Shown here one piece after another: positions 5,758 through 37,171 of a stretch of 64,000 nt of DNA. The number at the start of each line of letters is the position of its first letter. The stretch's first letter is position 1. The translations under genes and the position numbers were made by a program. Source of the stretch: Bryoerythrophyllum caledonicum (Eukaryota > Streptophyta > Bryopsida > Pottiales > Pottiaceae); contig OZ020515.1 in assembly GCA_963971425.1 (NCBI GenBank), positions 11,982,291 to 12,046,290 of the forward strand. The letters run 5' to 3'. The notes under the pieces are model-generated. The model did no database searches and was not told the DNA's origin. It was given only the letters and a program-made list of their open reading frames with translations.

Positions 5758-6054
5758 TGAATAGAATTGCCAAAAGAAACATAGAAGTCGATGTGGTGTT
5801 CCTTCCTTTATTTTCTACACATGAAGTTTTCTTGTCGGATGTACCGTACTATGGAGGCACTTGATGTCAAAATAATTTACCCTTCACTCTATTGAACAGT
5901 TCAACACCCAACAAAGGATTTATGAGATTATGAACTATCCACCAGTTTTTTTACAGGCAAATCAAATCATATCATTGGGGCACCGCGGGTTGTAATTTAC
6001 ATATCCAGCTATGGATGTGAAGAATGTAAGGTAACCAAAAAAAACGTCAACCTC

Positions 6055-17302: not shown

Positions 17303-17639
17303 TGTGGGAGTCTAAAACTCCCACTTGGTCGCCCCTACAAAAAAAATTAGTTAAAATAGGGTTTTTAGTATTAGTTAACTAGAAAAATAGTTAGTATTGT
17401 GTGAAATTAGATTAGATAGCGAATAGAGAAAATAGGGAAATGCTTAAGTAGTTAATTAGGTTTATAGTGGTGATAAAACCAGGTCTGAAAATCACTAATT
17501 TAAGTCCCGGGAAACAATTTCAAAAGAGTCCCGGGACGTAAGTCTAAAATCACCACTTAAATCTAAATTAACTAGTTGAGTTTAGAAGGTAGTTAGAAGT
17601 AGTTGAGTTCTTCTAGATGCTAATTCTTGTTTGAATTAG

Positions 17640-17740
17640 TAGTAGTGGTAGAGAAAAGAAAAGAAAAGACAAAATAGAAAAAGAAAAAAGAAAAAGGAAA
17701 AGAAAAGAAAAAGATTCCAAAAAATAAAAAATAAAAAATA
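17640..17740. repeat. Polypurine (GAAAA)n-like tract in the LTR
   Basis: Repeated AAAAG/GAAAA units over about 100 bases, followed by a run of CCCGGGTA palindromic units at 17740-17810. Confidence 0.8.
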
Positions 17741-17990
17741 CATACCCGGGTATCAACCCGGGTATGGGGTGATACCCGGGTACCCGGGTATCGCCCGGGC
17801 AGCAGCCTGGGTATCTCCAGCCGTCATGGTCGGCCTCTCTTTCCCCGAAATTTCACCTGTCCTCTCCAGAAACTCTTTCCCCCCTCCAGAACTCTTCTCT
17901 CCTTCCCCTCCTTAACTCTTCTCTCCTCCCCATCCTTCTCTAAAAATCTCCCCCTCCCCTCAAATTTTCTCCTCTATCTGCCTATCTAGT

Positions 17991-18008
17991 TCTCTCTCTC
18001 TCTCATAG

Positions 18009-18052
<44 letters not shown>
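17991..18052. repeat. (CT)n microsatellite in the LTR
   Basis: About 60 bases of CT repeats with one ATAGGTT interruption. Confidence 0.95.
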
Positions 18053-18053
<1 letters not shown>

Positions 18054-18921
18054 TTTGTCTTTTTGGAGTTGGGGTTTGAAGAAGTAGTCAAAGGAGTGAA
18101 GAAGAAGTGGTGCAACAAGGAGGAAGAAGAAGAAGGAGAGGAGGCTTTTCAAGTGTCTTGGAGGTGCGCGGACTAGGATTTGGTGGAAGAGATGCGCGAG
18201 CTACGGTTTGGTGGAAGAGGTGCGCGAGCTAGGGTTTGGTGGAGATTTTAGGGTTTTGTGGAAGTGGAGGAGATTTGTGGCCGAAGCGAGAAGATAAAAG
18301 AGACAAAGGAAGGAGGTTGCGGGTGCAACAACAAAGGTGATTCTTGCCCATGTTGGGTTTCTTTTGTTTGTGAGAATTTCTTGTTTGTTAGTCTTTTCCT
18401 CTCTTGTCTACCGGGGTGACTCCCCGGTAACATCCTCCCCGGTCTAGAGAAAAAGTCCCCCGGGGGGGCTTCATCTAGACGTTATTGTGTTGTTTACATG
18501 TGTAGTTGTTGTCGATTATCCTAGCCTTGTGGCAAGTTGTTATTTTGAGTTGTCTCTCTCCTCTTATCATTTTAGATCTTGCCCACAATTTCTATCTTTT
18601 TCCTGGTCTTTCCGGTCAACCAGGAAGAACCTCTTTGTAAGTCCTTGTCTCCAAAGTCTTCTCCTCGTTGTCATTATATGTGACCTTGTGTTGTTAGTAT
18701 GTTACTAGATGTGTGAGACACCCATATCCACATACTTTAGTAAAGTGTTCCGGAGTTGTCTACCGGCTGACCGGTAGATTTGTGTTTCCGGGCCGAACCG
18801 GAGTTTGTGACAAGTTAATAAGGAGATTGGTGGAAGTACAGGCATTTTGAAGATTTTGTCTACCCAGAACAACATGGCTCTCCGGTGAGTTAGGTGGATT
18901 CTCCATCCTCTAAGGCTGGGC

Positions 18922-19254
18922 TTGAAGGTCTATGAGAGAAAAAGAAACCTCCCGGTAACTTCTACCGGGAAGGAACCGGTAGACCACCCTTCCTCAACCC
19001 CGGAGTTTTTGGTGGAGTCCTCTGCGGCCATACTAATCGAGCTTAAAGAGACACCGCATGTATCTATAGATACACCCAACCTTCCGGTGGATACCGCCAC
19101 TCCACCGGTAGACCTCCCGGTGGATATTCCCAATCCACCGGTAGACCTCCCGGTTGAGACATCCGACCTCCCGGGGGATACTCTTGACCCTGTTGGTACT
19201 TCCAGACGTGGTGACAATCTCTATACGTCTCAACCGGAAGAGTCTTCCGGTTGA
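18922..19254 (+). other. Pro/Val-rich open frame in the LTR, probably not a gene
   Basis: A 110-residue frame with repeated LPVD/PPVDLPV units produced by CCGGTGGAT-like DNA repeats. No known domain. It is explained by the CCGG-rich repeat structure and lies wholly inside the solo LTR, so I do not call it a gene. Confidence 0.5.
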
Positions 19255-19517
19255 GTCTTTGTTATATGTTATGTGTTGATTTACCTCACCGGTTGGTGAG
19301 AAGTCGTTTTAAGTTGCTAGAATTACACACTAGGGTGAGAGTAGTGATGTCGATGGGGCCCCATTGCGCACCCGGTCACTACCACTTGAGTGGTTTCTCC
19401 GGCTACTTATTTTTGTTAGGAAAAGGTTCACCGGTTCTGGGACCGCCGGACCGGGAGTCTTCCGGTCTACCGGTCTACCGATAATCCGCCGGTGACTAGG
19501 CTACCCTTGATTTTAGG

Positions 19518-19712
19518 ATCTAGATGCCGTTTTGTCTTTTAGTGGAGCTACTTTTGGAGGGTAGCTATTGACTTTAGTGCACCTCCTAGATGCCGTTTCG
19601 TCTTTTTGCGGTCTAGTTTTGGAGCGTAGCTATTGACTTTAGTGCACTCTTTAGATGCCATTTCCACCTTTTGGGGATCTAGTTTTGGAGGGTAGCTAGT
19701 GGCCTTTGTGTA
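19518..19712 (+). repeat. Three tandem ~75-bp repeats in the LTR
   Basis: Each unit begins TAGATGCC, passes through TTTTGGAG.GTAGCTA and ends CTTTAGTGCAC or a variant. The three imperfect copies start near 19520, 19588 and 19651. Confidence 0.8.
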
Positions 19713-20715
19713 CTTAAGGGCCTTGGGCTCTTGTGTTATGTACTCTTCTCTTTGTTGATCTCTTTGTGTCTTGCCTTCATTGCTTGTGTCTAGAGTCTTT
19801 GTTGAGCTTGTGTGAGTAGACCGGGAGAGGGTTGAGTCCTCCTAGTGTATCTTTGCTAGGTGTGCAAGGTTGTGACTTGTTGTGTGTTAAGTGATTGAGT
19901 GTGAGTAGAGACATCCCGAGGGGCTAGGATATCCGGGTTAGATAGGTAGAGTGAGGTCCGGGACTTGTGCTCTAGACTTTTCATCGGTGGGACCGGGAAG
20001 AGTTGCTTTACCGGATGGGATCCGGGAAGCCCGCGGCTATTTATGATAGCCTCCCTTAAGTGGGAAGTGTTCGGATTGGTGGGGAGTAGGGGGTGACATC
20101 CCCCTTCTCTCGGTACACCGGGAGACATCCCGGCTAAGCCTGAGTCCGGTGAATTCCGGGATTATTACCCTTGTAGTGGATGAGTTTCGACAATCCCCGT
20201 GGAAGGTTGTTTTGCTCATATGATTTGCTTAGTACTAACTTGTTGTGAGTCTTGTATCTTCTTGCTTTGATTCATTGGGTGTGGTTGTAGTTGGAACCCG
20301 GGCTTGCGTGACCGGTTTACCGGGACAAGTTCCCGGTAGATTGTGAAGACCGGTTAACCGGCTGCGATCTTTTTAACTCTTTGAAGGTGTAGGGTTAGAT
20401 TGTGGATATTGTGGCCTCTGGACTGCGAGAACGGAGGGCAGTGACTTTCCGGGCACTGTAAAAACTTACCGAAAATCTACTCTGACGCTCAATAGAGTTT
20501 AACTGAAACACATTTGGTTACTTGTTATCGGTGACTAAGGTACCGGGGAAGTCATCCTCCGGGATGTGCCGAGGTATTATGTGTGAATTATTGTTAAGAT
20601 TTAAAGAGTTTGATGCACGATAAAAATCCCTGGAAACGATCTGGTAAGGTGGGCTTGCTTAAGGTTAATTTTGGTTAATTTTGAGAATAACGAACCACTA
20701 GACTACGACACTACA

Positions 20716-21244
20716 CTATCCAAATTATTAAGAAGCGCTCTTCATATTGCCCAACAACTATTTTGTTACCCCTTATGCACTAATATATACATGCACCTCT
20801 CCATGTACCATACACCCAAACCCCTACACACTTAGAGACACATATGTCACCACCAACAATAACATGCATCCGAGAAACAATCCCCCACCAACTCACCTCC
20901 CACTGCATCCACTCCTCCCTCCTCCCCTTAACACACATCCTCAAAAACCCATCCACATATTCCATAAATTCCATTCTTAACCATAAACATAGAAAACATT
21001 TTGATTCAAATAAAACTATAAAAAATGACACCAAATATCTATGCCAATGGCAACACAACAACACTATCTACAACAAATGGTTACCCCAACAAAACCTCTC
21101 CCATGGCATGACCAAAACACCTCCACCCATAATTCCACACAATTAAAACAATACTATCGAAACATTCAAAACACATCCTACTTTGAAATCATCTAGACAC
21201 ACCACCTCCAAGAGCAATCTCGTGATTCAAGATATGTTATCCCA
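20716..21244 (+). pseudogene. LINE-A segment between RT and RNase H (broken)
   Basis: Encodes LSKLLRSALHIAQQLFCYP and, in a second frame, the HKHRKHF to YNKWLPQQNLSHGM block. These align with LINE-B at 24460-24030. It ends with RDSRYVIP at the LINE-B insertion point. Linker region, no catalytic motif. Confidence 0.75.
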
Positions 21245-21494
21245 ATAATAATAAGATCACCGGTCACGGAAGGTGGCATGCGTGAATAAAGTGTCTATTC
21301 GTACCACCATCACTCAAATGCCCACTCGACAAAGGAGTGGAAGCATGGAACTACTTCCCCTTTCGAGGGTAGACACTATAGAAACCATCAAAGCAATTAA
21401 AAGGGCCAATTTGTCAAACTAAATTTACAGCAGGATACAGTTCGATAATGTTTTTCTTTTAAATAAATAATGGCATGCATTGCCCCTGTTTTGT
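21245..21494 (-). other. LINE-B 3' UTR and tail
   Basis: Contains the family 3' signature: GTGTCTACCCTCGAAAGG (inverse at 21363-21380), GGAAGTAGTTCC, ACACTTTATTCAC and a CCGG close to the end. The same signature ends LINE-A, LINE-C and the two short tails at 29584 and 48795. The tail is (ATT)n rather than poly(A). Confidence 0.8.
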
Positions 21495-22235
21495 TTAAGT
21501 GGTATCCGGGTCAGGGAGAGGTTGGTTGTTTTCTATTCTACGTTTATGCAGAAGGATGGACATGGCATGTTGGATAGCTATAGTGTTGATGTCTCTAAAA
21601 GTGTTTCTGATGTGTGTCTCGGGTATTTTGAATTTTTCTGAGGTGGCGTTCATGGAGGGAATGTGCGTGGTTGCTCTAGCTCTGGTTGTAATTACTATGA
21701 GTGGATCAACCTTCCATCCGAGTGTTTGTATTTCTTGTATGAGTGGTAGGTATTTGTTTGTTTTTTGTGCAATCGTATCTGGCGAGAAGCGGTCGTTGCA
21801 ATATGTAAATTCTATAAATTGTATGGTAATACCTGGGTTGGGAAATTCTAGTGGGGGATTTTTGTATGGTATGCCACGAATACATAGCAAGTCTTGTTTG
21901 AGTCTGGCATTGCAGTGACATCATTGTGTGTTGCATGTGCATTGTAGGAGCCATGGGGGGACTAAGTTTTCTGGGGGATTGTTGTGAAAAGAACCAACGT
22001 TCATATATGTGAGGCATCTAGTCTGACTTTGTGAGACTAGTAGTTTTTCTGATTTCCCAGACTGCCTTGTTATGTCGTTTTATGCGTAATGAGTGTATAT
22101 GGATTTGTTTGCATTTAAGCAGTACGTGGAGCCATGTGTCATGGTCTGTGGAGTTGCATATGGGCAGGTTATGGAAGGAAATCTTTCTCTTCCAAAGAAT
22201 AGTTGTTTTCGGAAATTACCCATGTATTGTCTAAT
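21495..22235 (-). pseudogene. LINE-B ORF2 C-terminal region: zinc finger and conserved domain
   Basis: After RNase H comes a CX2C...H...C finger (region 22235-22090), then a Cys-rich CTC...CHC block (near 21950-21900), then the 131-residue frame 21495-21890 with GWKVDPLIVITTRARATTH, FKIPETHIRNTF and INTIAIQHAMSIL. LINE-A (36617-36990) and LINE-C (37620-38100) preserve the same blocks, so this is a real part of the protein family. Function unknown to me. Frames change at least once. Confidence 0.7.
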
Positions 22236-23465
22236 TCAGAATTTTATAATACATGTTTTTTGTGGATCTGTGATGCGAGGATTTTTCGAAAAGGCATTAG
22301 AAAATTGGTTGTCTACGTCCGGGTTATTTGTCCATTTATCTATGTTGGGGAAGTTTTCTGTCAGTTCTTTTAAGTTGTTGTATAGGTCATGTTTTTTAAG
22401 ATATTTTGATAGGAATCTAATGGGGCCTTTATTAGGGGTGACACCCATTGATGGCCATTCATTTCGTTGGAAGTAGTAGGGGGTTGTGTGCGCATGCTCA
22501 AATGGGTGTCGAGCATCTTTGTGATTTTCTTTGTCACGAACTGTTTTGGCTAGCTTATCGGCCTCTTCGTTTCCCATGATGTTGATGTGAGCTTGTACCT
22601 TGTGGAAGCTAATGGGGTGTGAGCGAGTTTGAAGCATTTGTACCATGGATTGGAGGGTGGCATTATCTGGGTGATTGTTGTGTGAGGTGGGGTGGTGTAT
22701 TTGTGTGTTTAGAAGATATAGAACGTTTTTGCAGTCCGTGAATATATGGGTTGGTTTGTTAGGGTATTCATTGTTTAGTATTTGTAGTGTTTTGTAAACA
22801 GCTATTAGTTCTGCTCTAAAAATGTTTTGTAGGCCATTATGCCGTTTGGACTTAGTGATTGCTTTCGGGCCATTATATATTTCATAGCTTACATTTTCTT
22901 GGGTTGAGTGTCCATTTACTTCCATGGGTTCTTTGAATGAACCATCGGTGTAGTAACAATATTGGGGGTTAAACTTAAGGGGAATTTCCGCGTTGTAGTC
23001 TGGAAGTGGTGGTGTGTGGGATAGGGGTGTGTTTTGGAGTTCTGGAATTTGGAGTTTTGACCAAGTTTTGTTGTGGTTGACAAGGGTGTCCTTGGGGGTT
23101 GGCGGGGCAATGCATGTATATATTTTTTGGATGTTGAGTTGTGTGGTTACTGTTTTGAGTTGGTCAAGGTTTGTTTGGTGACCTACATTGGTTTTTTGGT
23201 GGTGTATGCATAGGATTTGTAGGGTGGATTGTTCAGTTCTTGGTTTGTTGATTTCAGGGGGTATTGTTGGTTTTGTGTATGTAATGGTGTTAGCGTCAAA
23301 CAAACATATGATGTGGGAGTCTTGGAAAGGGCCTTTGTGGGGGTTTGTATTTTGATACCAGTCTTCATCTGGTAAAACAAGGTATGTTATGGTTGAAGGG
23401 TTTTCTTTAGAGGCGAGGCGGGCCTGTGAATAGCTTGGTGTGTTTCTTCTATATTGTGTGGCCAA
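22236..23465 (-). pseudogene. LINE-B ORF2 RNase H domain segment (409-codon open frame)
   Basis: Longest intact stretch of LINE-B. RNase H fold with all acidic residues present in this frame: Asp174 (YYTDGSF), Glu219 (FRAELIAVY), Asp244 (HIFTDCKN) and Asp303 (GNEEADKLAK), plus His288/His293. The domain would degrade the RNA of the RNA-DNA hybrid during reverse transcription. Upstream residues 1-160 are linker; downstream 340-409 lead into the zinc finger. LINE-A has TNG in place of TDG near 35220. The frame is intact, but the flanking ORF is broken. Confidence 0.85.
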
Positions 23466-24655
23466 TGCCTACCCATTTGAAGTCAATGGCTTTCCCTAGT
23501 GAACCAAAGATTTTATCTCTGGTAAATGGGGGGAAAAATTTGTTTAGTGTGGTGGAGCATGTAACTGGGGAGGAGAAGTAGGAGTGTTGTATGTTATGTG
23601 ATGTAGTGAAAGTGTCAAGTATGTCTGTTGGAAGTGTAAAATGTGCCCGTTTTAGGGGGTTTTCTTTTAGGATTCTATGTCTATATCTTTGATATATCCA
23701 CACGACTTCTATTTCAAATGGTTGTGTTGTGGGTTCAAGGTTATTTGGGATGTATAGTGCGTTTTGGTATTGTTTCCATAGCCATTTGAGTCGTTTTGTT
23801 TGTATGGTTATGAAGTGTTTGCCATTATATTCATATATGTGAGCATCATTTCCTTGGATTTGTATGGTAGGTATGTTTAAGTCAATATCTTTATGTGGGT
23901 TACATTCAGTGATGGAGATATGAGCTAGAGGTATTTGTGTGGGGGGGATACAAATCTTGTATCTCTGGTTTGTGTTTGGGGTTGGTGCGCATTGAATATA
24001 TTTTTCCAAACATTGTTGGATCATTCTCTATAGTATTTATTGAGGCATTTGAATTGATGTGAGGTGATGGTGTGGTTGTGCCAAGGAAATAAGTACCTTT
24101 GGGTTTGCCATTTGTTGTACGTTTGGTCTTGTATTTTCCATTGACAATGATATGTTGTTATTTCTATAGGTATGTCGTTGATATCGTTTTGTATTCTATG
24201 TTTGTGGCCTACGATTGCATATATCGGGTATGTGAGTGGTTTTTTTGTTATATATTTTGGAGGTGGAGGGTAGTGGGGTGTGTTGGGCGGTGGGGGTTGT
24301 GTGGATGGAGGGGTTATGTTTGGTGGTATATTGTTATTTTTGCAGGAGTATATGTTTTTAGTGTTACGGGGTTTGGATGGGTGTTGCAAGGTTGTGGGCA
24401 TGTCGGCTAACATTTTGGGTGGCAGAATAGTTGTTTTGCTAGGTTTAGAGCACTTTTAATTAGTCTTGTTGGTTTGGAATGGTAGCGGGTGAATTCTTCG
24501 ACATTCATGAGCTTGGAGCCACATGGTGTTGTAATTTGTCTTAGATTTGTGATGTTCCGGGTGAAGAGTTTTTGGAGTAGTTTTTGTGACGTTTGTTCTA
24601 TTAGTTGTGGTAATGCGGTGGCTTCTTGTAGCCATAATGTTTCGAGTGGTGTAGG
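23466..24655 (-). pseudogene. LINE-B ORF2 linker between RT and RNase H
   Basis: Open frames 23449-24024 and 24021-24413 overlap by four bases in different frames. They encode low-complexity, Asn/Thr/Pro/His-rich sequence with blocks conserved in LINE-A, such as ITECNPHKDI and PWHNHT. No catalytic motif. Confidence 0.7.
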
Positions 24656-26330
24656 TTAAGTTTGGAAGTTTTCTAGTGTGTTTTTTAGCTGTAATTTGCC
24701 TTCTGTTTTGAGGAGAAAAAAAGTTCTTGAGATTGGTGATCTCTGGCAGTCTGAGCTTTTGTTTCTGGATAGGTTTTCTGCCCCTCTATATTTGGCTAGG
24801 ATGTAATGTACTAGACCTTTGTAAATTCTGCCGAGTCTACCTTTATCATTTAGAGCATTTAATAATTGTTCGCCTATACATCTTAGATAGTCCGTTTTAA
24901 ATGAGAAGGCCTCTAGGCCAAACATGTCATGGGGGAGTTGTGTGACAACATTTGTTGTACATTTTGGGAGGCTACACATTGTTTTTTGTGTAGCTATTAT
25001 TCTTTTGTCTAGTTTTTTAATCGTGGGCATGGAGTATGGAATTGTGTAGAAGCTATAAGAAACTCCTGGTCGGATGACCATGTCTACCATGTTAATTTTT
25101 TGTGTCATTGTAGCTGGGCTTTGTAATAGGTCTTTACATTGTTTGTTTAGTTTTGCGAAGGTGACATGGGTTTGTATGTGCCATTTTAGTGATGGGACTA
25201 CATTGATTCCGAGATATATGTATGCCTCATTTTGATGTAGGATAGGGATAGGCTGGTTTCTATAGTTAATGTTTGCGTTTTGAATTTTTGTCTTGAATGA
25301 GTCTGGGTTAGTTTTTACTTTGTTTGGGCAACTTGTGATTGCACATTTTGGAACTCCAATGTCCATTCCTGACCATTTGCAGAATCTGTCGATCTTCTCA
25401 ATTTGTGTTTGGATAGTTGTTAGTTTCTCTGAGAAGATTGCCAGATCGCCGGCGTATGCGGCTGAATTTATTGTGATTTTGGAGGTTCCGAAAGTGTAAC
25501 CATTGTCTCCTCTTTGTAGCCATCTTAGTAGAGATTCTAGAAATATAATAAATAAGTAAGGGCTAAGTGTGTCTCCTTGTATTGTGCCTCTTTGGATTGG
25601 TATCGAGTGTGTTTTCCTAAAGTTTTTGCCTATGTACATGGTAGTTGACCGGGCGTATATGTTACCTACCAGTGTTACTGTGTCTTTGGGGTATCCAAGA
25701 TCACTCATGATGGCTAGTAGGCATGCGTGTCCGATAGAACCGAATGCATTTTTGAAATCTAGGTATAAGATGTAAATGTCTTGGTTGGTGAATTTCACGT
25801 CTTCCAATGCACTGATGAGAGTTTGTATCTATCTTGATGTACTGCGTTCTGCCCTAAAGCCTTCTTGGCTATCATGTAGGATGTTGTGCATTTCTCCATA
25901 CGATGATAGTATAGTAGTAAGGGTACTTGTATATAATTTATAGATGGTATTGGCTAGGGCAATGGATCTATGATGGTTAGTATGTAAGGATCACCTTTTT
26001 ATATAGAAGAATGGTTAAACTGGTTTACCAGAGTTCAGGAATTTGCTTTTGTTTGTAGCGTGTAAAAAGAAGAGGTGTAAAAGTTTGTGAAATTGTTCCG
26101 GCATATTTTTCAGAATTGAGTTTGGAATTCTATCTGGCCCTGGGGCTTTGTTGCTACTTAGATTTTTGAGACATTGTTCATATGTTTCTTTTTTGAAGTA
26201 TGTGTGTAGGGGTATGTCCGGGTTCCCTCTTTTTTCTATGACAAATCCGTCTAAGTCATGCCATGTGTATTGTTTAGCATTGCAAGTGCATGTTGGGGGA
26301 TGTTTGGTTTGGTAATTGCACGGAGGGGTG
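24656..26330 (-). pseudogene. LINE-B reverse transcriptase (active-site mutant)
   Basis: The upstream part 26330-25810 has NKAPGPDRIPNSIL near 26145 and frame changes. The 383-codon frame 25807-24656 carries motif A YLDFKNAFGS (Asp17), motif B GTIQGDTLSPYLF and the catalytic box as YAGD (25445-25456), where the first Asp of YxDD is Gly. The thumb and LINE-specific sequence follow. Loss of the metal-binding Asp predicts no polymerase activity. Confidence 0.9.
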
Positions 26331-26903
26331 GTGGGTTTGTTGATTTGTGACTGTTGGAGGTATATCTCATTTGCAATGTCTGTCAGGTTTGTCAGGATGT
26401 TGCCATGTTGATCTCAGATGTAGTCTAAGGTTTGCGGGTTGTTATTGCTTCTAAAAACTTTTTGATTTATCTTTTTGGGGCTTTTGTTGTAAAGTTGTCT
26501 GTATTTTGAGATGGCTTTTTTGATGCAACTGAGGTTGTATTTTGTGGTTATTTTTTGTGCCATCTTTTTTGCGGTTTTGGCCAGTTGGGCTTTTCTAGAG
26601 ATCCAATTGTCTAGGAGGTTGTCATCTATGGGTGGGTATGGGATGTCTGGGTCTTTGTAGTTTTGTATATTGTTTAGAATTGGGTGTGTTCGCCATACTG
26701 GGTTTGTTTTTTGAATGCGTATAAGTTTTCTGATGATGTGGTATGTCGTCAAGTGATGTTTCCAAGGTTTTGCTAGTTTCCTGGGTAGGTATCCTCCTTG
26801 TTGTGTTGTTTGTGGAGTTAGGTATGGTAGTGGTTGTGCCTAACATGTGAGTTCAATTGTGAGTGAGATTTCTTGAGTCAATTTGTCTAAGGTATCACAT
26901 GCG
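26331..26903 (-). pseudogene. LINE-B ORF2 segment between endonuclease and RT
   Basis: The 112-codon frame at 26414-26752 with KKAISKYRQLYNKSPKKINQK is a basic helical stretch typical of the EN-RT linker in LINEs. Flanking frames are shifted. Confidence 0.6.
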
Positions 26904-27810
26904 TCAGACCACTGGGTGTCGGAGAGGTTGTTGTTGTTTGCTAGGATTTGTGTGAGTTGGTCTATGGTGTTTGAGTTTTTTTTCAAAAAATGATGTGTGG
27001 AATGCTTCCATGTTTTCTGAGGGGATCGGATTGAGAATTATTTTTGTGGAGCTTGTTGGTTTCTTTGGGATTCTGCTAATTAGTGTGTTGTGTGGGATGT
27101 GGAGTTGGATGGGGAAGTGATCAAAGTTTAGATTATTTTCTATATCAATTGTGCATGTAAAGTGATGGTGTGGTTCGTTGGTGTAGAAATCATCAATTAA
27201 GTTTGTTTCTGTGTAGTTATGTCCACCTAGTCTAGAAAAGTTTGAGTTTGTTGGGATGTATGTGAGTTGTAGGCGGTTGGTAAAGTTTCTCCATTTGTAG
27301 TCTTCAGTCTGCAAGGGGTGAGGTTATTGTTTTTCCGTCTTCCAATTATGGCAATACCCCTATTGAAATCCCTTGTGAGGATTTGTGTATGGTTTGGGTG
27401 GTTTTATGTGAGGTTTGTAATATTGTTGTATATTTCTGGGATGAGAGCAAGGTCATCTTGGTGTGATGGCATGTATAGATGTATGATAAGCCAATGTTGG
27501 AGTGGGTTTGAAGGGGGTTGGAAGTTTTGTAATATTTCCTGGAAATGTGTATTTTTTGTTTATAAGAGTGAGGAGTCCTCCTCTGATGTTTAGGATTTTT
27601 CTTTGTTGCGCACACCTAGTGATGTTATGTGTATTGTTGAAGATTAATTTGTATTCTGGAAATAATTTTTCGATATATTTCCTGGATTTTGTAGCTGTTA
27701 TTTTTGTTTCTTGGATGCATATAATTCCATGTGCAGTTTGAAAGTTTTGTATTAAGTTTTGGATGCTAGGGAGTGTGGCATTTAGAGAGGCTGCATTCCA
27801 GGTGATAAGG
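26904..27810 (-). pseudogene. LINE-B AP-type endonuclease (broken by frameshifts)
   Basis: Pieces in three frames give the APE-like endonuclease motifs in order: NLITWNAASLN near 27810, GIICIQETKI (metal-binding Glu) near 27725, a degraded DFN motif as LTRDFNRG near 27370, and NLNFDHFPIQLH (the SDH-like motif) near 27115. In an active element this enzyme would nick target DNA. At least two frame changes and a stop break it. Confidence 0.75.
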
Positions 27811-28331
27811 TTTGTGTTGTTTTGATTTTTGTTTATTGGGCATGGTTGGAGGGGGATATAACTATTTTCTTGGGAGGGGTGTGTATTCTAGGATAGGGTC
27901 CAAGCATTTTAGTGATTGACTTGCAAGTTTGTCTGAGATGTAGGGGAATTTGTTTTTTATCATATTGATTGGTGGAGGTGTGTTATGTTTGTGTATATAG
28001 TTATATAGTGATTTATGTATGGATTTTTTAGGGTAGATTATGTGTTGTTTTAGACATTTCAATTTTGTGTATGCATGTTCTGTATGGATATGTCTTTCCA
28101 GGGGGTTCAATAGTGTTGTAAGTTTTGAGAGAATGGTGTGTGTCCAGCTATTTGTAGTGTTAAGTTGTGGCCATGCTGAGATTAAGGTATTGCATTTGTT
28201 TATGGAAGGGCTAATAGTGACTATGATAGCATATAGGATATCCGATGGGGGGTGATGCGATAGGGTTTGGAGGAATTGGGCGATGTGGGGGTATATATTG
28301 TTTTATTCAATGTGCTCAAGGTGTAGAGGTT

Positions 28332-29123
28332 TTAGTAATAGTGCAAATGTTTTGCTAGGTGTGTGTATTCTGGATATAGTTTGATGGTGCCGGATATGAA
28401 GTATAGTTTGGCTCGGTTTTTGTTTACTGAGGGGTGGTTTTGGAGGATTTTGGGCATGGGTCCTGGACTGGTTTCTATATCTCCACTAAGGAGGAGCAAC
28501 AATTTTTTGTAGTTTCTTTTTAGAGAAGGATTTTCTGAGTATGGCGGTGTTCGGTGGTCTGTTTGGTGATTATTAGATGTTGGTTTGGTGATGTGTTGTA
28601 GATTGGTAAAGTGGGTGATATTTTGAGGCAGGAATTGAGTGTATTGTGTAGTATAGTGTTGATAAGGTAATTGTATAGGAAGTTTATATATATTTTTGAG
28701 GGGGGTTTGTCTGGAATTTTTTGTGTGGGGTTGGCCACCAGATTGGGTGCGGGGTTGGGTGTGGGTGGTTGTAAAGGTTTTTAGTGATTTTTGGAGGAGT
28801 GTTAGTGTTGTGTGTTTTGTAAGGGGTTGTTTTGGATGCTTTGTGGATAGTTGTATGTGTGGTTCGGTAAGCCGTTTGTTGTAGTGGTAGAAGGTTTGTT
28901 GTTTAGGGATTTGTGTGATTATATCTTTTGGAGTTCGTGTGTTTGGTTTGGAGTTTTTTTTATTGAGGATTTGAATTTTGAAAAGAATAGATGTTTGGTT
29001 TTGAGGATATGTATAATAGTTGTATTGTGTTTGGAGTTGTTGTATTTCTTTTGTGTTGGTAGTATTTATAAATACTAGTCTTTTGTGGTTTTTTGTTTTG
29101 GGTTTAGAATTTATAAAATCCAA
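28332..29123 (-). pseudogene. LINE-B ORF2 N-terminus with 2A-like motif
   Basis: 263-codon frame starting 52 bases after the ORF1 stop. A Thr/Gln/Pro/Lys-rich region of unknown function leads to a basic-hydrophobic run and GDIETSPGP at residues 214-222 (28458-28484). This matches the 2A translational-recoding consensus D-(V/I)-E-x-N-P-G-P except Ser for Asn. 2A-like sequences near the N-terminus are known in some animal and trypanosome LINEs. The frame stops at 28332; ORF2 sequence continues beyond in other frames. Confidence 0.75.
28458..28484 (-). promoter_or_regulatory. 2A-like (StopGo) peptide coding site
   Basis: Encodes GDIETSPGP followed by Met, preceded by KKLLLLLS. The Asn of the consensus is Ser (AGT codon), which would be expected to weaken or abolish ribosome skipping in this copy. 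Confidence 0.7.
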
Positions 29124-29175
29124 TGTTTTTGGTGTTTTTTATGTTGTTTGTAGCATGATGTTTCATTTGTCAAAG

Positions 29176-31021
29176 TTAGTTTGACTGGTCCATAGAACCT
29201 TCACCTCCTTCAATCATCATCTTGTCAAGGATGTCTATTGTAAGTTTGAGTTGACCATAGAGTGCTCTCATCTCCTTGCGAACCGCATGAGCTGAAGCTT
29301 TGACAATCTGGTCTGCATAAGTGCGTGATTCCTCCACCATTGTGTCCTTGAAGGTAGCAAGTTCCTGCCTCACCTCAAATTTGGTGGCCTCTACACTTTT
29401 AGCCACTGCTAAGTCCACAAGCTTGTTAATGTCTTTTACATTTTGGTCATTGGTTTTGGTGATGTTTAGAGCCTCAACCGTGTCTACTATGGCAGTGTTA
29501 ATGTTGCCAAAACCTAACCTTAACAACTCCTTGTGACTTGGCTTGCTAGTGCCATCCATACTCTTAGGGTGTGGTGTAAAAGTAAGAAGAAGAACGTCGG
29601 TCTCCGAACGAGGCCGACATGAATAAAGTGTCTGTTCGTTCCACCACTAAGACCATGTCCACCGGACAGGGATTTAGTAAGCTGGAACTACTTCTCCCTT
29701 TCGAGGGTAGACACTATGTAACAAGTAGCCAAGAACCATAGAACCCACCAACCACAAAGAATGGTGTAAAAGTTACATAGTGGCCATGCATCTCCCCAAC
29801 CTTGTTCACGAATTTTTTATAGATTGCAACATTCTTGCATTCAATGTTATAAGACCCTTTACTCTTGCCACCTTCAGTTTTGAAGAAGAGTTCCACAATG
29901 TTTTCAGTTCCCATATGTTTTTGTATTGCCTCTTCAAGTTCTTTGAGTTTTTTCACCTTGTTAAGCCCTATGGCAATGAGGGATATGGCTTCTTTTTTAG
30001 CTTTGTCATTAGCCGACATTTTGCCTCTAGGGGCAAAAGTTGGGACAAACACTTCATTGTCCATAAAGATTTTTTCTTGTCTTATTTTTAAAGCTTGATT
30101 TGGTGTTGTTTCTCTCACCCATGCAAAGTCTTGTTCCAACATTTTAGTGACACTTACGACCTCATAGTTTGAGCCTTTGCAAAAACCTTCATCCACGATT
30201 TCAAGGAGAATCTCATGACGGTCCTTTCCTTTTAATGATGGACTGTTAATGCGTGTATTATGCATACTGAGTGGGGCAACAATATCATATGATCTGCATA
30301 CTTTAGCTCTGAGGGTTGTGTGATCAAACGCAAGAACAAATGGGCGAGGACCTGAGAGGAGATCACATCCATCAACCTCAGGTGTCAGAAGGTGGACTTG
30401 AAGGATTCCATTCCATTTTTCAGAGTTGTGTTGACACATAGCAATGATTAGTTGGGACTCAGCCATACTTTCACCCAACTTGATTCCGATGACTTCAAGC
30501 CTTGTTCTAGCCATATTAATGACTTGATCTTTTGTGAGTGTACATTCTTTTATTTCGAATGCAAGTGCAATTTGGTAGTTGAAGGAAAAACCATGTTCAT
30601 CCACCTCCAACTCACTAGGGAGTTGGGTGAGGTTGAAGTGGTTTCCTTCAACTCCATCCTAACGGACGTTGTTCCACTCTTCTTGTACTACATAAGGAAA
30701 TGAAGGAGTGGAATTGATGACATTATCAACTTCATTTGCATTCATTCCTAGCTATAGTAGTTCTGATTTGGTTAGGTTGGTTTCTTTAGATGCATTACGT
30801 CTTTGACCAAGTGCATTCAGAGTGGCAAATCCAAGCCAATAAGAGATAGGGGTATACACCTCACTGGTTGTCATGGTGGTGCCTTGGTCATGAACACCAG
30901 CATCCTCTCCAACTGCTGCATCCATATCCAGTTGACATGTAGGATTTATCTCCAACTCGTTGTTTGGTGTTTGAATGGGAGTGGAGGTGTCCTTTCCTGA
31001 TGTAGGAGTCGGTATCATCAT
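29176..31021 (-). pseudogene. LINE-B ORF1, ~551 codons, two TAG stops and one insertion
   Basis: Three open pieces (31021-30752, 30751-29774 and 29571-29176) are one reading frame. TAG stops fall at 30752-30754 and 30659-30661, and a 178-bp insertion plus a 12-bp duplication sits at 29584-29761. Removing insertion and duplicate joins YVTFTP to HPKSMDG in frame, and the whole span then divides exactly into 552 codons. The middle has a possible RNA-binding-like fold (ELFFKTEGG... KFVNKVGEMHGHYVTFTP). The last ~100 residues look like a coiled coil (KSVEATKFEVRQELATFKD). ORF1 proteins usually coat LINE RNA. No zinc knuckle seen. Confidence 0.75.
29584..29761 (-). mobile_element. 178-bp LINE 3' tail inserted in LINE-B ORF1
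   Basis: Perfect 12-bp duplication TGGTGTAAAAGT at 29572-29583 and 29762-29773. The content is the family 3' signature (CTACCCTCGAAAGGGAG, GGTGGAACGAACAGACAC, CTTTATTCA), ending in a TTCTTCTTCTT tail. It is a severely 5'-truncated LINE or a SINE using the LINE tail. Confidence 0.85.
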
Positions 31022-34000
31022 GTATATACAATAAAATGTGTGTAAGAATTCTTGTTTTCAAGTATTCTCTTTGCCCTCATGCCAACTCCCCTCCCACACA
31101 ATAAGGTGTGGGTTGTACGTGGATAGTGGGGGAGAGTAGTTTAGTTGCAATTTTGAGGTCTAGGGAAGATCCATTTGGATTCCACTTGATCTTGTATTGC
31201 TAGTGTGGGTATGCCCACTAGTGTGGTTGTTGTATTGAATACAACAATCCCTCGCTTGCATATTTTGAGGTAATACTAATGGTATCAATATTGTATATGT
31301 TTGTATGAGGATCAATTTGTTTGGTGTTGGCATGTTGATTACTTTGCTCCAATTACCCTCACCTTCCGACATAGTAAGGAATGGGTTGTGCAGGTGAGGA
31401 GTAATGGATATGGATACAAACATGTAATACCATAATGTGCTTGATTTATGCAATACATGGGGTAAGTGCACATCAATGTTGATGAAACTTTGCACCATAT
31501 TGCAATATACTAGGTATCGTATTACTATTGGTTCTTTTCTTATTACATTAGAGGGTACTACTTGTGAGCTATCCATTCTACCAATTTGTGTGACTTGTGG
31601 AATAGGATATTGCCACCATGTTTTACAGTGTAGGCTACACATTTTAGCAATTTGCAAGAACAATGTGGTTTGAAAGCGTTTTCTAGAGTTTTTAAGAGAC
31701 TTGAACCTCTTAGTGTATTGAGTGACACATGTGATTATGATTTTAGTATTAGCAACTCTATGGGACATAGATGTTTTTATGTAATAACTAATGTATATGA
31801 TAGAGTGGGGGTTCTTAGTGTTTTTTAAGGACCTTCTAGGAGTATAGATAGGTGACATATTATTCTTGTAACTTAGCCCAAATTCTGATGTACCAGAGTA
31901 GAGTTAATATTTCAAACCTGATGAGATCACTTGATGCTCTCTTGCTATGTTTTGATTTTTCGGTACTTGGTGCCATTTCTCCTTGTCTTGCTTGTCTTGG
32001 AGTCTTGGTTGGAGCCTTCCTTTTATTCTTGTTTGTTGTTGGGGCACTGTCTTCCACTTGTTATACACCTTGTTTCAATCGTCTAGCTTTGATTTGAGGA
32101 TGCTGCAAAGAGGGGTCATTTTGTCGAGTTGCTCTTGGTTTTTCCTCCGTCGGCGGCGTAACGATTGATGCTCTAGTTCTGTCCTAGCTACACCCACACA
32201 GTTCCAACAAAGCAAAGCAAGGGTGCTTTTTCTATGGTTTAATGTGGAGGAGGTAGGTAGCTTAGGTAGGTTAGAGTAATTACAGTCGAGCACACATATA
32301 GCGAGGCCACTCCATGTGTGTAGTACCCTGCCCTTGAGTGTACTAATGAATACACAAGCAAGGTAAGGGGACTAACTTGTTGTAGTTGGGTCCAGTGTTC
32401 GACTGCGAGCCTTGCTTTATCCCCTCCCGAGTACAGTCCACGTTGTTGTGATACTACCGTTCAGGGATGAGTTCGATTCGTCCTTTGGCCGCTTTCCTGA
32501 CTTACTTGATGGATCTTCTCAGCCTTTTGTGGAGTTTGGTCCAAGAGGCTGGGGCGCGGGGTGGCTTGGTTTTGTATAATGTGACCGGTTGCCTGGGTTC
32601 GTTGTGAGCTACAAACCGCTGCTGATTGGTGATGTCATTACAGGTTCTGCACGTTGAAACTAACAACACACATGCAACATTTCCGTTCTTTCTTACTTAT
32701 TTATTGAGTTCCATTTGTGTTAGGGTTAGTTTCAGTGCAAGGTGCAGGTCTTCAACTTGATAATACGTGATGTGAATTGACGCATAGCATGCAGTGTTGA
32801 ACGAATATATGAACTTGTGCAGAGTATGATTTGCCGTACCTTTGGTTGTTGTACAGACTTTCCTGAACTTGAGAGTGTAGGTGTGGTCCGTCAGGAGGTG
32901 TGGTTTTGTTCTTGTTCCTTGTATGCTCGGTGCGTGTATCTGAGTCTGGTTGCTGGCGTAGCAGGTATCTAAGTACCCTCTCTAGATTGTAGTCCACGGT
33001 ATTAGGGCACTAGTATTCGGGGGAGAGTTTGTTTGGTCTTTTGGTGACTTGCATGGTATGCATATTGATCTTCTTCGCCTATTCTTGATTGTAGTCAACG
33101 AGGTTGACGTGTAGGGCAGCTCGGCTTCACCTGTTGGGACCTTGCAGTCTTGTTGCAGGTTTGTGAACTTAGGTACGCGTAGCTCCTGTTGTTGGTGCGT
33201 GTCGTGATCTTCGAGCCGCTGTTGGTTGGTCATGTCGTTACTTGTTGTGTTCCTGCACATTAAGCCTAATAGAGCACATGCAACATTTTTTTTTTCTTTG
33301 ATTTCTGTGTGAACTTCGTTGATATTGGAGGTGCTCGTGTAGTCTGCCGGGAGGAGTGGCGCTTTTGCTTTCAGTATGCTTGGTATGTGTGTCTGGTTCT
33401 TGTTGCAGGGGAGTGTGCGTAGAGCAAGGATACTAAATTCTTCACAAGAGGCTGCAAGATTAACGTGGCTTGCTTGGTCAAGTTACAGACTCCGAGACAT
33501 GAGATCAACTCGGATCTTTTATCTACCCAAGTCTTACTCAGTCGGCTAGTACGTGAACCTACCGCCTTTGTAGATATAGTGCGGCAGTTGATCTAGACTT
33601 AGGGCTGAAGACTGTGACTCTTCTGTTACCTTGAAACCTCGATCCTATTGTGCAAGTAGATCACAGTGCTCCCTTCTCAACTAAGTGCAGACGTCTACAC
33701 GACCATGAATCTAGGGTTTCAAAGTAAGGACAGGGCAACGCCGACGCAGCCGCTTCGGCATTCTGTCCTCTCCCGACTTCAAATCTGTTACCACAAGATC
33801 AGGGAAGTGAGGGTCTCCTAGGCGTCTGTGCTCAGAGCACTTGTTTCCATTTGCAGTTTTCGGATCGGAGGAACCAACAACGGCCCAACTCTTCTGAAGA
33901 CTTCCTTTCCTCACGATCTACGGCCTTGCTGACTGGTGCACAATGAGAGGTGTGAGTAGCCGTGGTTCGCTTGCACTTGAACCCTACCAGCAGAAAGTTT

Positions 34001-34194
34001 TTCCCCTTGCCTCTCCTCAGTTCTATGCTTCTGTAGGATATCCACAAGAACTAGGGTTTGTGGAGAGGCCAACCCTCTCTACACTATTCTTGCAGATCTA
34101 TAGTTCCTTTCCCTTAACAACACTCACCAGATCCCACTTCTAACGTAGTTAGACATTGCTTCCATCACACATCAAAATTTCCTATCTCCTTTTT
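31022..34194 (-). other. LINE-B 5' region with diverged tandem monomers
   Basis: About 3.2 kb upstream of ORF1. Blocks near 32590-32690 and 33170-33290 match (CCGCTG.TG.TTGGT, ATGTC.TTAC, CTGCAC.TT, CACATGCAACATTT), as do 32870-32960 and 33310-33410. This gives two diverged monomers of roughly 500-600 bp. The minus-strand 232-codon frame 31160-31858 has no recognisable domain. The region presumably contains the internal promoter. Confidence 0.55.
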
Positions 34195-34206
34195 TATGTT
34201 ATCCCA

Positions 34207-36995
34207 CCTATAATCATTCCCATCCTCAACATAAACACAATTGAATGCAATCCCGAAAAAGACATCCTCACATCAAATAATACAATAAAATTAATAAAGA
34301 CTTGCACATGTGTACGAAGACAACAAGAAGCATCTAATCACTATTCTTGTTGCCAGACTCCAATGGCTTTGGAACCAGTACCAGAAAAAATTACAAACTC
34401 CCACAAAAATAGAACCAACAATCTAACCATTTGAAACTAAAGTAGCTTGGCTATACCAAAGATATAAATACCATATCTTAAAAAATGACCCCCTCAAACT
34501 CGCACAATACACATTATCCATGCCCATCCTAGACTCACTAATCTCATCCTTTAACATCCAACACTTGCACTTCTCATCTCATGTCACTAGCCCCATCCAA
34601 CTCAATAAATTCCATTCACCCTTCAAAAGAGACAATATCTTTGGCTCACTAGGTTATGCCTTTGACCACAAATGGATTGGAAATGATATTGCGCACCCCC
34701 ACAATGCAGAAGAAACGCAACAAGCTATACATTGGGCAAGACTTGCAGCCAAAAACGACCCAAAATACACCTCCACCTTTATAATCACACGTGATAAAAA
34801 TTGGTACCAAAACTTTAATCCACACTCAGACCCATTCCCAGATTCTCACATCATTGCATTATTTGAGGCATGCTCAATACCATATGAAGAACCCACTATC
34901 CCACTAGAACTAAAAAATAAACTTGGGTTTGAGTCATCCACCATACAAATACTATGCATACATCGCCAAAATATTAACATTGGTACCATGGAACAACTTA
35001 CTACACATACCACAATAACAAATGACCTCAACATATGTTGATTATACACAAAAATAGCCCCACCTACACCTTTCCAAACCCCAGTAAATCACAACAAAAA
35101 TTGGTCTCATCTTAAATATGCAAGCATGGCACGAACCCACCTCACTACACCACCCCCTCTTCCCACATGCTGCGACTATATCCCTTTAAAATTTGATCCT
35201 GCATACAGTTATTACACAAATGGCACCTTTAAAGAACCAACAGAAGTCATTCGGGGACACTAGCATAGAGAAAAAGCAAGATATGACATCTATTACCTCA
35301 CCAAAGAAATTAATATATCCAAAAATGATGGCACTCCATAAAACCCTCTAAATTATCACTACAGAATACACTAATGAACCCCCACACATCTTTACAGATT
35401 GTATAAATGTCTTGTGTCTATTAATTAGATAAATAACACACCCTATCCTCCACAATAGCCACCAAGACCAAGCCATACTAACATCTATGGTTCAATTGAT
35501 ACAAAGTCGCATGCTAACTACAACCCTCCATAAAGTCAGAGCACATGTCAATATAGAAGGAAATGAACAAGCGGATAAACTAGCAAAAGAAGGATTAGGT
35601 AATCCCGTAGAAATGCCAAACACTTGTATAAACACGCCGACGCTACCCCATATTACTTCCAAAGGGAAAGTTGGTCTTCCATGGAAGACATTCCGGACAA
35701 AGGCCCATTAGATTTTTGGATAAATATCTCAAAAACCAAGATTTAATTAACAACCTCGATCCAATCTTGGAAAGGTTCTCCAACATAGACAAATGAACCA
35801 GTAAAACAACATTGATAACAAACTCTCTACAAACTCTTGGAAAAATCCCACAATCACAAATCTGCAAAAAACATGTCTTATCAAATTTTGTATTGGACAA
35901 TATATAGGGAACGCCCGCAAACAACTTTTCATAGGAATAAAAAAATTCTCATCAATAACATGGCCAATATGCACCTCCACGGACCCGGACACATAGCTAC
36001 ACCTACTCTTCAAATGCCAAAACCATCACATATATTTTCTAATCGTCAAAAGCACAATAAAGCAACATGGAAAATCCCTAAACTAATAATATCCTTAATT
36101 AAATCAAGATGCTTTATACTCAATAAACCACAAGAAAACACAGTCCTTCCATGGCTACTTCCATGCACATGTGGAACCCAAAGATGTCATTGTAATGCCA
36201 GATTTAAACCAGACATACTATGTGTCAAAGAACTACCATATAAAGATCCCCCACCAAACCACATAGATATTAAGGGCCAGTTTACACTAAGGTGAAGAAG
36301 TGCACCGGTCGGTCAAGAATTTCAGCCCAAGACATGGTTATTTGAGGCAAGGGACGATGTGCCGGCCATGTTTCATGTCTGAGGCTTTGAGCTCGCCCAA
36401 GAAACTTGATCTCCAGAGAACCTCCCCTCCAAAAAGTGTTGCCACATTGGCAGCCATGTCATTTTTTCATCCATGCACAAAGTTCTCCACCGGAGGACTC
36501 TTGGCCATAGTGTAAACCTCCATCGGAAAAGAGCGTCACTCTTGGCCAATCAAATTTCAGAATTCCCCTAGAATTCATGACCGGTGGACTTTTCCACCAT
36601 AGTGTACTGGCCCTAACCTTACTATCCAATTTATCGAATTCAAATATTATACTGATAGATTTTTCCTGCAAACAATCAAAAACAAAATTAATAAGTATCA
36701 CCTGCTTATTGATGACATTGTCGCCTTGGGCTCGAAGGTTGACCCCCTTACTGTCATTGGTGTTGGAGCTAGAGTCACTACCTTTATTCCCTCTTTGAAT
36801 AGTCTAAAAAAACATTCAGTATTCCCATTAATCCAATTAGAAAGACATTCACAAAAATTAACACCATTGCTATTCAATATGCAATGTCCATACTTCTACA
36901 CAAAAAGAACCAACCTCTTCCAGAATTGTATGACACCATTTAAAGACCTCTCAAAATACACATCTTCTCATCAAGTCTTCTCTTTTTGAACTGGG
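34207..36995 (+). pseudogene. LINE-A RNase H and C-terminal region (broken)
   Basis: Continues LINE-A after LINE-B. The frame 34520-35041 aligns with LINE-B residues around FGSLGYAFDHKWIG and RDKNWYQNFNPH. RNase H follows with YYTNGTFKEP near 35215 (Asp to Asn), FTDC near 35393 and ATLHKVRAHVNIEGNEQADKLAKEG at 35525-35600. Then come CTCGTQRCHC near 36170 and SKVDPLTVIGVGARVTTFIPS near 36730. Multiple stops; interrupted by a MITE at 36274-36613. Confidence 0.8.
36274..36613. mobile_element. Tourist-like (PIF/Harbinger) MITE in LINE-A
   Basis: Termini GGGCCAGTTTACACTAAGG and the inverse of GGGCCAGTACACTATGG, with about 35 bp of imperfect inverted repeat, flanked by TAA at 36271-36273 and 36614-36616. 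Removing it restores the LINE frame (HIDINLTIQFIEFKYY) as in LINE-C (HIDPNLTI). The GGCCAGT start and TAA duplication are typical of Tourist/mPing-type MITEs. Confidence 0.85.
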
Positions 36996-37029: not shown

Positions 37030-37166
37030 ACTAGTTATTGGCCACATAGTGTCTACCTCAAGAGGGGGGAATAGATCCATACTACTAAACCTATGTCCGG
37101 TGGACATGGATTTAGTGGTAGAACAAACAAACACTTTATTCACTCCGGCCTCTTTCGGGGACCGGA
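37030..37166 (+). other. LINE-A 3' UTR and tail
   Basis: GTGTCTACCTCAAGAGG, CCGGTGGACATGG, ACACTTTATTCACTCCGG and GGACCGGAGTTCTTC match the ends of LINE-B, LINE-C and the 29584 and 48795 tails. LINE-C begins within a few bases. Confidence 0.75.
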
Positions 37167-37171
37167 GTTCT

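Follow-up and report, generated by a model that had tools for sequence, protein, structure and literature searches.

A 12.95-kb LINE of likely Dualen/RandI-like type with a PCIF1-like domain in Bryoerythrophyllum caledonicum

Most LINE insertions, those of L1 above all, are 5'-truncated fragments. In LINEs of the I- or Tad-like group, the domain order is APE (AP-like endonuclease), RT (reverse transcriptase), RNase H and zinc finger. Dualen/RandI LINEs of green algae have two endonucleases and an RNase H. For algal RandI, 3' tails of the (ATT)n type are listed in PMC3747384. Retrotransposons with captured cytosine methyltransferases, SymbioLINE-Dnmt and KnitGypsy-Dnmt3, are described in PMC5890265, and orchid Ty3/Gypsy elements carrying an m6A demethylase domain in PMC9289625. 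As to cap modification, PMC10544176 reports that PCIF1 binds the m7G cap and that changing both N and F of its N-P-P-F site inactivates it, whereas fly PCIF1 carries a single F-to-H change, offered in PMC9479742 as a possible reason why flies lack m6Am.

Here, we analyzed a stretch of 64,000 nucleotides from B. caledonicum (the window). We think it likely that the unit described below represents, at full length but no longer active, a giant autonomous LINE of Dualen/RandI-like type; less certainly, its PCIF1-like domain might serve as a cap binder.

Boundaries, copies and ORF1

The LINE span is set by a 12-bp exact duplication, TATGTTATCCCA, with exactly two plus-strand occurrences in the window. 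The element and its surroundings comprise:

15355..21232, plus strand: host LINE-A 5' part, RT onward, interrupted by the element
21233..21244, no strand: target-site duplication TATGTTATCCCA, 3' side of the element (exact match)
21245..34194, minus strand: complete family A LINE of 12,950 bp with broken frames
21245..21256, minus strand: 3' tail, (ATT)n in element sense (read from the sequence)
29179..30841, minus strand: ORF1, conserved domain and C-terminal end, broken by a 178-bp insert
29584..29761, minus strand: 178-bp tail-only insertion in ORF1, with the 12-bp duplication ACTTTTACACCA
30842..34194, minus strand: 5' region, perhaps including an N-terminal extension of ORF1; open in several copies, with no clear signature of codon use
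34195..34206, no strand: target-site duplication TATGTTATCCCA, 5' side of the element (exact match)
34207..36934, plus strand: host LINE-A 3' part (PCIF1-like domain, RNase H, zinc finger, endonuclease candidate)

Joining the flanks without the element yields an unbroken frame, ...SRDSRYVIPPIIIPILNINTIECNPEKDI..., in agreement with ...PDSRSVTPPIIIPLLKIHTSECNPENDI... in relatives; with the duplication found exactly twice and the flanks rejoining into one frame, the boundaries proposed in the original prediction hold. The LINE thus sits inside another, related LINE (host LINE-A), the 5' part of which gave no LINE match from about 17.3 to 20.7 kb. The window also contains a GRAS gene, and rbcL occurs at three places in the genome, one of which scores 702 bits to its best PDB match and 665 to 1gk8 of Chlamydomonas; both point to a host of the land-plant lineage. 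The element combines a reverse transcriptase, a target-site duplication and a short-repeat 3' tail, and has no LTRs, as a scan for repeats of at least 60 bases found no direct repeat at its two ends. These features confirm that it is a LINE, and its boundaries give a length of 12.95 kb. With its frames broken, the window copy is dead.

A genome search with window positions 30001-31000, in which 40 of 220 candidates were scored, revealed at least 20 places (window included) matching at least 80% of the query at 90-100% identity. Ten further copies were compared with the window, and six of them (C11, C14a, C2b, C3, C7a and C9a) have the 5' start predicted for the family, their alignments beginning at most 40 bp from window position 34194. 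C2b is bounded by its own 12-bp duplication (length 12,161 bp), as is C11 (10 bp printed, 12 by eye; about 12,920 bp). Other 5' ends were found in C14b, aligned from element position 891, C1a (from 1334) and C1b (from 2078), and C6 shows just 39-47% identity across the first ~0.9 kb. A consistent start near 31 or 29 kb was looked for among the ten copies and not found, C1b alone first aligning near 32.1 kb. Over 31-34.2 kb, identity to C14a, C2b, C11 and C9a ranges from 64 to 95% in window-by-window comparison. Because six of ten copies share the 5' start, two of them with their own duplications at 12.2 and 12.9 kb, we assign 31-34.2 kb to the element. It is highly improbable that an unrelated insertion, or chance proximity to a shorter LINE, accounts for this segment and perhaps for ORF1. 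Such a reading could point to the youngest relative, which at 9.9 kb has no ORF1 whatever, to locus L039, where ORF1 is part of an older LINE hosting the young one, and to the differing 5' ends of four of the ten copies; against it stand the shared start and duplications of the A and B copies, and the conservation of ORF1 across families (31% identity to the ORF1 of another family, E=2e-45). For families A and B, an unrelated origin of ORF1 and the 5' part is ruled out by the duplications lying outside the entire 12-13 kb unit.

ORF1 displays third-position bias and has no Pfam match. The 178-bp insert that breaks it resembles the tails found in two families, B and the young one; truncated events do occur, as this tail-only insert illustrates. 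The giant size that had been predicted stands, but is attributable to an extra ORF1 module rather than to a longer ORF2, because the youngest family measures 9.9 kb without ORF1. A comparison of five copies and the window put the identity of family A to family B at 90-95% across window ~30.9-29.2 kb and at 57-73% over ORF2; 5' leaders are also unlike among B copies. Quite probably, the two families are recombinants, sister LINEs that swapped an ORF1-bearing 5' module, a reading that is compatible with the main one and not exclusive of it. Selection on ORF1 might cause part of the contrast, but perhaps no more than part, since the high identity extends beyond the ORF1 end to ~28.9 kb.

ORF2 domains and class membership

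In relatives, ORF2 is ordered 2A-like, APE, RT, weak chromodomain-like, PCIF1-family, RNase H, zinc finger and candidate PD-(D/E)XK-like C-terminus. The corresponding features of the window copy, all on the minus strand, are:

28458..28484, minus strand: degenerate 2A-like motif, GDIETSPGP
27066..27830, minus strand: APE (tblastn; motifs and ExoIII match in an intact relative)
24740..26299, minus strand: reverse transcriptase (PF00078, E=5.8e-19)
24024..24230, minus strand: weak chromodomain-like stretch (alignment to relatives; Pfam and PDB)
23076..23748, minus strand: PCIF1-like domain (PF12237), divided between two frames (Pfam, E=5.8e-7)
22509..22976, minus strand: RNase H domain (Pfam PF00075, E=6.2e-15)
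22045..22268, minus strand: CCHC-type zinc finger region (tblastn; cysteine/histidine pattern of relatives)
21510..22043, minus strand: candidate PD-(D/E)XK-like C-terminal restriction-like endonuclease (tblastn with the region of a young copy; alignments; by motif only)

The original prediction had listed ORF1, endonuclease, RT, RNase H, zinc finger and a conserved C-terminal domain, all of which were recovered, and a 2A-like motif, which is degenerate in the window: GDIETSPGP departs from the consensus D-x-E-x-N-P-G-P, whereas the young relative has the canonical GDIETNPGP. The PCIF1-like domain, the chromodomain-like stretch and the nuclease motif of the C-terminal domain had not been named.

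The APE of the intact relative carries TWN, QETK, GDFN and SDH, which we take to be APE motifs, and matches ExoIII (E=0.0022 over 41 aa); a match to Exo_endo_phos (E=0.018) lies below the cut-off. RNase H (PF00075) scores above the cut-off in the window and in relatives. For the chromodomain-like stretch, matches to Pfam Chromo at E up to 1 were obtained with five of nine sequences, the best having E 1.8e-4; the scores shown, 11.8-16.8 bits, lie under the cut-off of 25.1. Against the PDB, all four matches of a four-row profile are chromodomains, each of them weak, and a nine-row profile gave weak matches led by the interleukin-6 receptor, with Polycomb second.

At the C-terminus, the candidate motif reads D..EFT..K..KY. 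The D, E and K-Y positions, which resemble those of the R2-type nuclease motif, are kept in copies where readable, and both the window copy and C2b have another residue in place of the P preceding D. No PDB match was obtained for the profile of this domain, and the protein gave only unrelated weak ones; an AF2 model (four rows) reached pLDDT 34, with no fold support. Having an N-terminal APE and an RNase H, the element is best read as a Dualen/RandI-like, dual-endonuclease LINE, the second endonuclease being a candidate recognized by motifs only. An ordinary APE/RNase H LINE (I- or Tad-like group) that lacks a second endonuclease and ends in an odd zinc-finger domain would also show the order APE, RT, RNase H and zinc finger and would account for a nuclease candidate that lacks profile support. 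We regard this as unlikely: the R2-like positions are retained, the RT has five PDB matches at E up to 1, all of them R2 or 'reverse transcriptase-like' proteins and none named L1, and the tail belongs to the (ATT)n type, which PMC3747384 lists for algal RandI.

The PCIF1-like domain

The window copy scores 29.7 bits against PF12237, just under the cut-off of 31.1. In a relative, one uninterrupted 1,009-aa frame matches both RVT_1 (2.3e-23) and PCIF1 (4.4e-12; 46.4 bits vs the same cut-off), and RT, PCIF1 and RNase H occur together in a 1,467-aa stretch of a 3,087-codon frame. All nine domain sequences match PF12237 at E up to 0.01. Searched against the PDB, the domain profile matched two PCIF1 sequences weakly (0.062 and 0.45) and nothing else at E up to 10; the second aligns A-N-P-P-F on the A-H-P-H-N site of the element. 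For the window's own piece and for a five-row profile, the PDB yielded nothing relevant, and an AF2 model (two rows; pLDDT 36) gave no usable fold. Pfam scans of open frames found no WW family that would indicate an N-terminal WW domain. Among the literature matches listed, no LINE with a PCIF1 domain was found in print.

The domain is under purifying selection, with dN/dS of 0.10-0.25 (18 of 21 pairs, where computable). Nevertheless, the catalytic N-P-P-F site is absent from all 16 readable copies: 13 have HPH and three HPY, DPH or PPH, the replacement being mostly H-P-H-[NTS]. The domain therefore may no longer methylate by the known chemistry. An active methyltransferase with an altered active-site loop, marking the element's RNA (or DNA), would fit the strong selection and has a precedent in the cytosine methyltransferases of retrotransposons described in PMC5890265. 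It is distinctly unlikely, as N and F are both replaced, the same two residues whose change inactivates PCIF1 according to PMC10544176, and as the fly F-to-H change alone is a possible cause of m6Am absence in PMC9479742.

A young family, possible mechanism and known systems

The very young relative has intact frames, the 3,087-codon frame within 9.9 kb and no ORF1, and forms a family whose near-identical copies number in the dozens and are mostly of full length. They have ~12-bp duplications and, where the 5' end joins the flank, extra Gs. In a census by a 57-base probe, which truncated copies without the probe sequence escape, 54 of 66 3'-end matches have a same-strand 5' end at most 45 kb away (one 5' end serves two) and 12 have no 5' partner; 45 of the distances are no greater than 10.3 kb, and 33 are exactly 9,741 bp. 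A 14.7-kb version of this element with ORF1 was rejected, since the upstream ORF1 at L039 belongs to the LINE into which it inserted: the match of 39 other copies begins at ~4718-4772, and a duplication, TGGACACGGATA, is present. A repeat upstream at L041 was likewise excluded. Among 24 resolved 5' junctions, ten have a short extra stretch, always starting with G, five none, eight an overlap and one a longer odd extra. A fixed stagger of ~12 bp would suit the shared flank strings, of which 26 of 32 distinct ones measure 11-13 bp and six 5-10 bp; in mismatched flank pairs, at least 9 bp were shared in 12 of 1,112.

The element would spread by target-primed reverse transcription. APE and/or the candidate C-terminal endonuclease may make two nicks, fixed at ~12 bp apart, from which both DNA strands start, with the short-repeat 3' tail priming first-strand synthesis. 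Less certainly, the PCIF1-like domain might bind the RNA of the element itself at its capped 5' end and, so bound, help the RT complex to finish all 10-13 kb and join the 5' end. The extra Gs and the m7G cap binding of PCIF1 speak for this cap clamp; against it, full-length L1 also carries cap-derived Gs and, to our knowledge, has no PCIF1 domain. More tentatively, and with considerable doubt, a captured cap methyltransferase turned non-catalytic clamp could, together with a chromodomain that reads chromatin and two endonucleases whose cuts have a fixed 12-bp stagger, give mostly full-length integration of 10-13 kb and so overcome the truncation by which other LINEs are limited. The element could offer a lead to compact machinery that inserts full-length copies, and a young, mostly full-length LINE with a relative of a cap-binding enzyme makes recognition of the RNA 5' end by a LINE protein directly testable.

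With the Dualen/RandI LINEs, the element shares APE, RT, RNase H, a candidate PD-(D/E)XK-like C-terminus and a 3' tail of short repeats, which in the window family are (ATT)n, as well as a tail-only short insertion. It differs in the PCIF1-like and chromodomain-like stretches between RT and RNase H, in its length of 10-13 kb and in its host of the land-plant lineage; the likeness is one of features. R2 LINEs offer the nearest solved RT and a C-terminal nuclease of similar motif type to the candidate, but the element has APE, RNase H and ORF1, and duplications at many unlike sites vs one rDNA target. To PCIF1/CAPAM, the cap-specific m6Am methyltransferase, the domain is linked by PF12237 similarity, an F-G-S-x-G motif and flanking sequence; in contrast, it lies inside a retrotransposon protein, with N-P-P-F replaced and no WW found. 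To the few modification enzymes that retroelements have captured, the element adds a relative of an RNA-cap enzyme. Like SymbioLINE-Dnmt and KnitGypsy-Dnmt3 as described, the element keeps a nucleic-acid-modification enzyme domain under selection, but theirs are DNA cytosine methyltransferases, whereas here an RNA-cap enzyme relative, probably non-catalytic, lies within ORF2. The orchid Ty3/Gypsy elements, in their published description, are likewise plant retroelements with an RNA-modification domain, in their case an eraser in an LTR element, whereas the LINE of the window has a relative of a writer.

Boundaries of the insertion and its sister lineages

The original prediction of a LINE bounded by a 12-bp target duplication was confirmed, as TATGTTATCCCA occurs exactly twice on the plus strand of the window, at 21233-21244 and 34195-34206, enclosing a unit of 12,950 bp that is read on the minus strand. 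The predicted rejoining of an interrupted reading frame was likewise borne out: joined flanks yield one frame across the site, matching relatives elsewhere. Because of this restored frame, the element is identified as an insertion into a related LINE, LINE-A:

21245-34194, minus strand, the inserted element
~15.4-21.2 and 34.2-36.9 kb, plus strand, LINE-A, the interrupted host LINE

Three head-to-tail repeats of ~65 bp (window 19521-19713) lie within the part of the host, ~17.3-20.7 kb, that has no LINE match and separates two LINE-A matches. A second LINE tail, reaching from the end of an RNase H region to a nuclease candidate and containing three in-frame stops, adjoins LINE-A at 37164-38096, and a GRAS-family gene occupies 55159-57126 in one open frame (E=5.5e-115), which suggests that the host is a plant.

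The 437-Mb genome (894 contigs) was searched for further copies. Among the best 40 of 220 candidates scored, at least 20 places, including the window, match at least 80% of window positions 30001-31000 with 90-100% identity. A common 5' start of full-length copies, as anticipated, was recovered in part: of ten further copies compared with the window element, six align from its 5' start and four differ at the 5' end. Copies C2b (12,161 bp) and C11 (~12,920 bp) are flanked by their own duplications, that of C11 measuring 10 bp computed and 12 bp by eye; a search for one around copy C6 found none. Two sister lineages were distinguished, A (window, C14a, C2b, C14b) and B (C11, C6, C1a and others), which are 90-95% identical around the ORF1 end and 57-73% identical in ORF2, with a break near window 28.9 kb, a contrast indicative of module exchange. 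Copy C1b (loci L027/L028, ~1490-6829 of the joined stretch) appears by eye to contain an LTR retrotransposon, nested and Ty3/Gypsy-like, that has a C5 cytosine methyltransferase-like region among its ORFs and resembles retro-DNMT elements reported in a charophyte.

Coding anatomy and the PCIF1-like domain

The frames of the window copy are disrupted by stops and frameshifts, and the anatomy was pieced together from parts of different copies. ORF1 gave no Pfam match for its conserved domain; it shares 31% identity over ~300 aa with the ORF1 of another family (E=2e-45). Third-position-biased change is confined to its C-terminal part; several copies have an open N-terminal extension, which lacks a codon signature. 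ORF2 spans ~7.6 kb. It opens with a 2A-like motif, followed by an AP-like endonuclease (APE) and reverse transcriptase (RT), then by a chromodomain-like stretch and a PCIF1-like domain; after these come RNase H, a zinc finger and a C-terminus bearing D, E and K-Y motifs similar to those of R2-type nucleases.

In copy C1a, RVT_1 (2.3e-23) and PCIF1_WW (PF12237; 4.4e-12, 46.4 bits, cut-off 31.1 bits) fall within one uninterrupted 1,009-aa frame; the domain of the window copy scores 29.7 bits, slightly below the cut-off. PF12237 is matched by all nine aligned domain sequences (E<=0.01), and in the genome-wide search by all 150 places scored out of 2,614 candidates, each above the cut-off. The PF12237-bearing family is absent from all 14 control genomes. 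Searched against 177,635 PDB sequences (E<=10), a nine-sequence profile matched two PCIF1 entries only, weakly (0.062 and 0.45); an earlier five-row profile matched no PCIF1 entries. The alignment to the second entry (E=0.45) sets A-N-P-P-F of PCIF1 opposite A-H-P-H-N. Of the 16 copies readable at this site, 13 have H-P-H, three have H-P-Y, D-P-H or P-P-H, and none has N-P-P-F.

Excerpts of PMC10544176 report that replacing N and F inactivates PCIF1 and that its helical domain binds the m7G cap, and an excerpt of PMC9479742 describes an F-to-H change in fly PCIF1, proposed as a possible cause of m6Am absence in flies. Pairwise comparison of seven intact domains gave NG86 dN/dS values of 0.10-0.25 for 18 of the 21 pairs; the other three pairs are saturated, and dS is high in some of the 18. 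The low dN/dS, the replaced N-P-P-F and the PCIF1 literature together indicate that the domain is maintained by selection and is probably not an m6Am methyltransferase. Capture of cytosine methyltransferases by retrotransposons is known (PMC5890265, in part); among the literature matches listed, with many journals outside coverage, none describes a LINE with a PCIF1 domain or chromodomain.

A young relative and its junctions

In the genome-wide PF12237 search, score and E-value are the same at 42 places, of which 33 lie in an open frame that is exactly 3,087 codons long. One such copy, C8 (9,934 bp), is flanked by TGGACACGGATA and has no ORF1. Among the best 40 of 604 candidates scored, at least 39 other places are 99-100% identical across its 5' start, with starts at most 54 bp apart. 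A 57-base 3' probe (up to three mismatches) detected 66 places; with a 5' probe, 59 were detected. A same-strand 5' partner lies within 45 kb of 54 of the 66 3' ends, one 5' end serving two; the spacing is at most 10.3 kb in 45 cases and exactly 9,741 bp in 33. Twelve 3' ends, three on high-numbered contigs, and six 5' ends lack partners. This family is young, and within the limits of the probes its copies are mostly full-length. The first 476 codons of the frame (L039:5142-6569) contain no Met, one following immediately after the 2A-like GDIETNPGP. C8 is hosted by a different, ORF1-bearing LINE family (L039:289-4008; open ORF1 of 1,240 codons) with its own 2A-like variant, GGDMETNPRS, downstream. 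A repeat upstream of this host (L041:410-1926) recurs at dozens of other places, parts apparently in tandem.

Flanks were examined in 39 young copies, five of which had their 3' end not at the expected place. The remaining 34 yielded 32 distinct shared strings, 26 of 11-13 bp and six of 5-10 bp, not all independent, as some places have common flanks. Mismatched flank pairs shared at least 9 bp in 12 of 1,112 cases, some of these long matches arising because duplicated loci share flanks. All but one of the 26 longer strings start with T, which could be part of the (TTC)n tail. Among the 5' junctions, 24 were resolved: ten carry short extra bases, all G-initial, five none, eight an overlap and one a longer odd extra.

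Proposed mechanism and comparison with Dualen/RandI

Starting from the insertion, its duplication and its anatomy, the element would have integrated by target-primed reverse transcription with two nicks ~12 bp apart. Its RNA may have been capped when copied, consistent with the extra G at 5' junctions of the young family, and the PCIF1-like domain could act as a clamp for the capped RNA end. Two points count against this picture: cap-derived Gs are also known from LINEs that lack such a domain, and a 178-bp tail-only insert in the window demonstrates that truncated events happen.

PDB matches to the RT (E<=1) comprise five sequences, R2 or 'reverse transcriptase-like' proteins. Dualen/RandI elements, in excerpts of PMC4640811 and PMC3636483, have two endonucleases, an APE and one of restriction-like type, alongside RNase H. 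The LINE described here shares APE and RNase H, whereas the restriction-like endonuclease is a candidate only, recognized by the C-terminal D, E and K-Y motifs. It probably works like, and is, a Dualen-like LINE, membership being short of proof. In algal RandI the tails consist of (ATT)n or (CTATTT)n and are common to SINEs as well (PMC3747384, in part); the tail of the window family is likewise (ATT)n, and that of other families here is (ATTT)n or (TTC)n.
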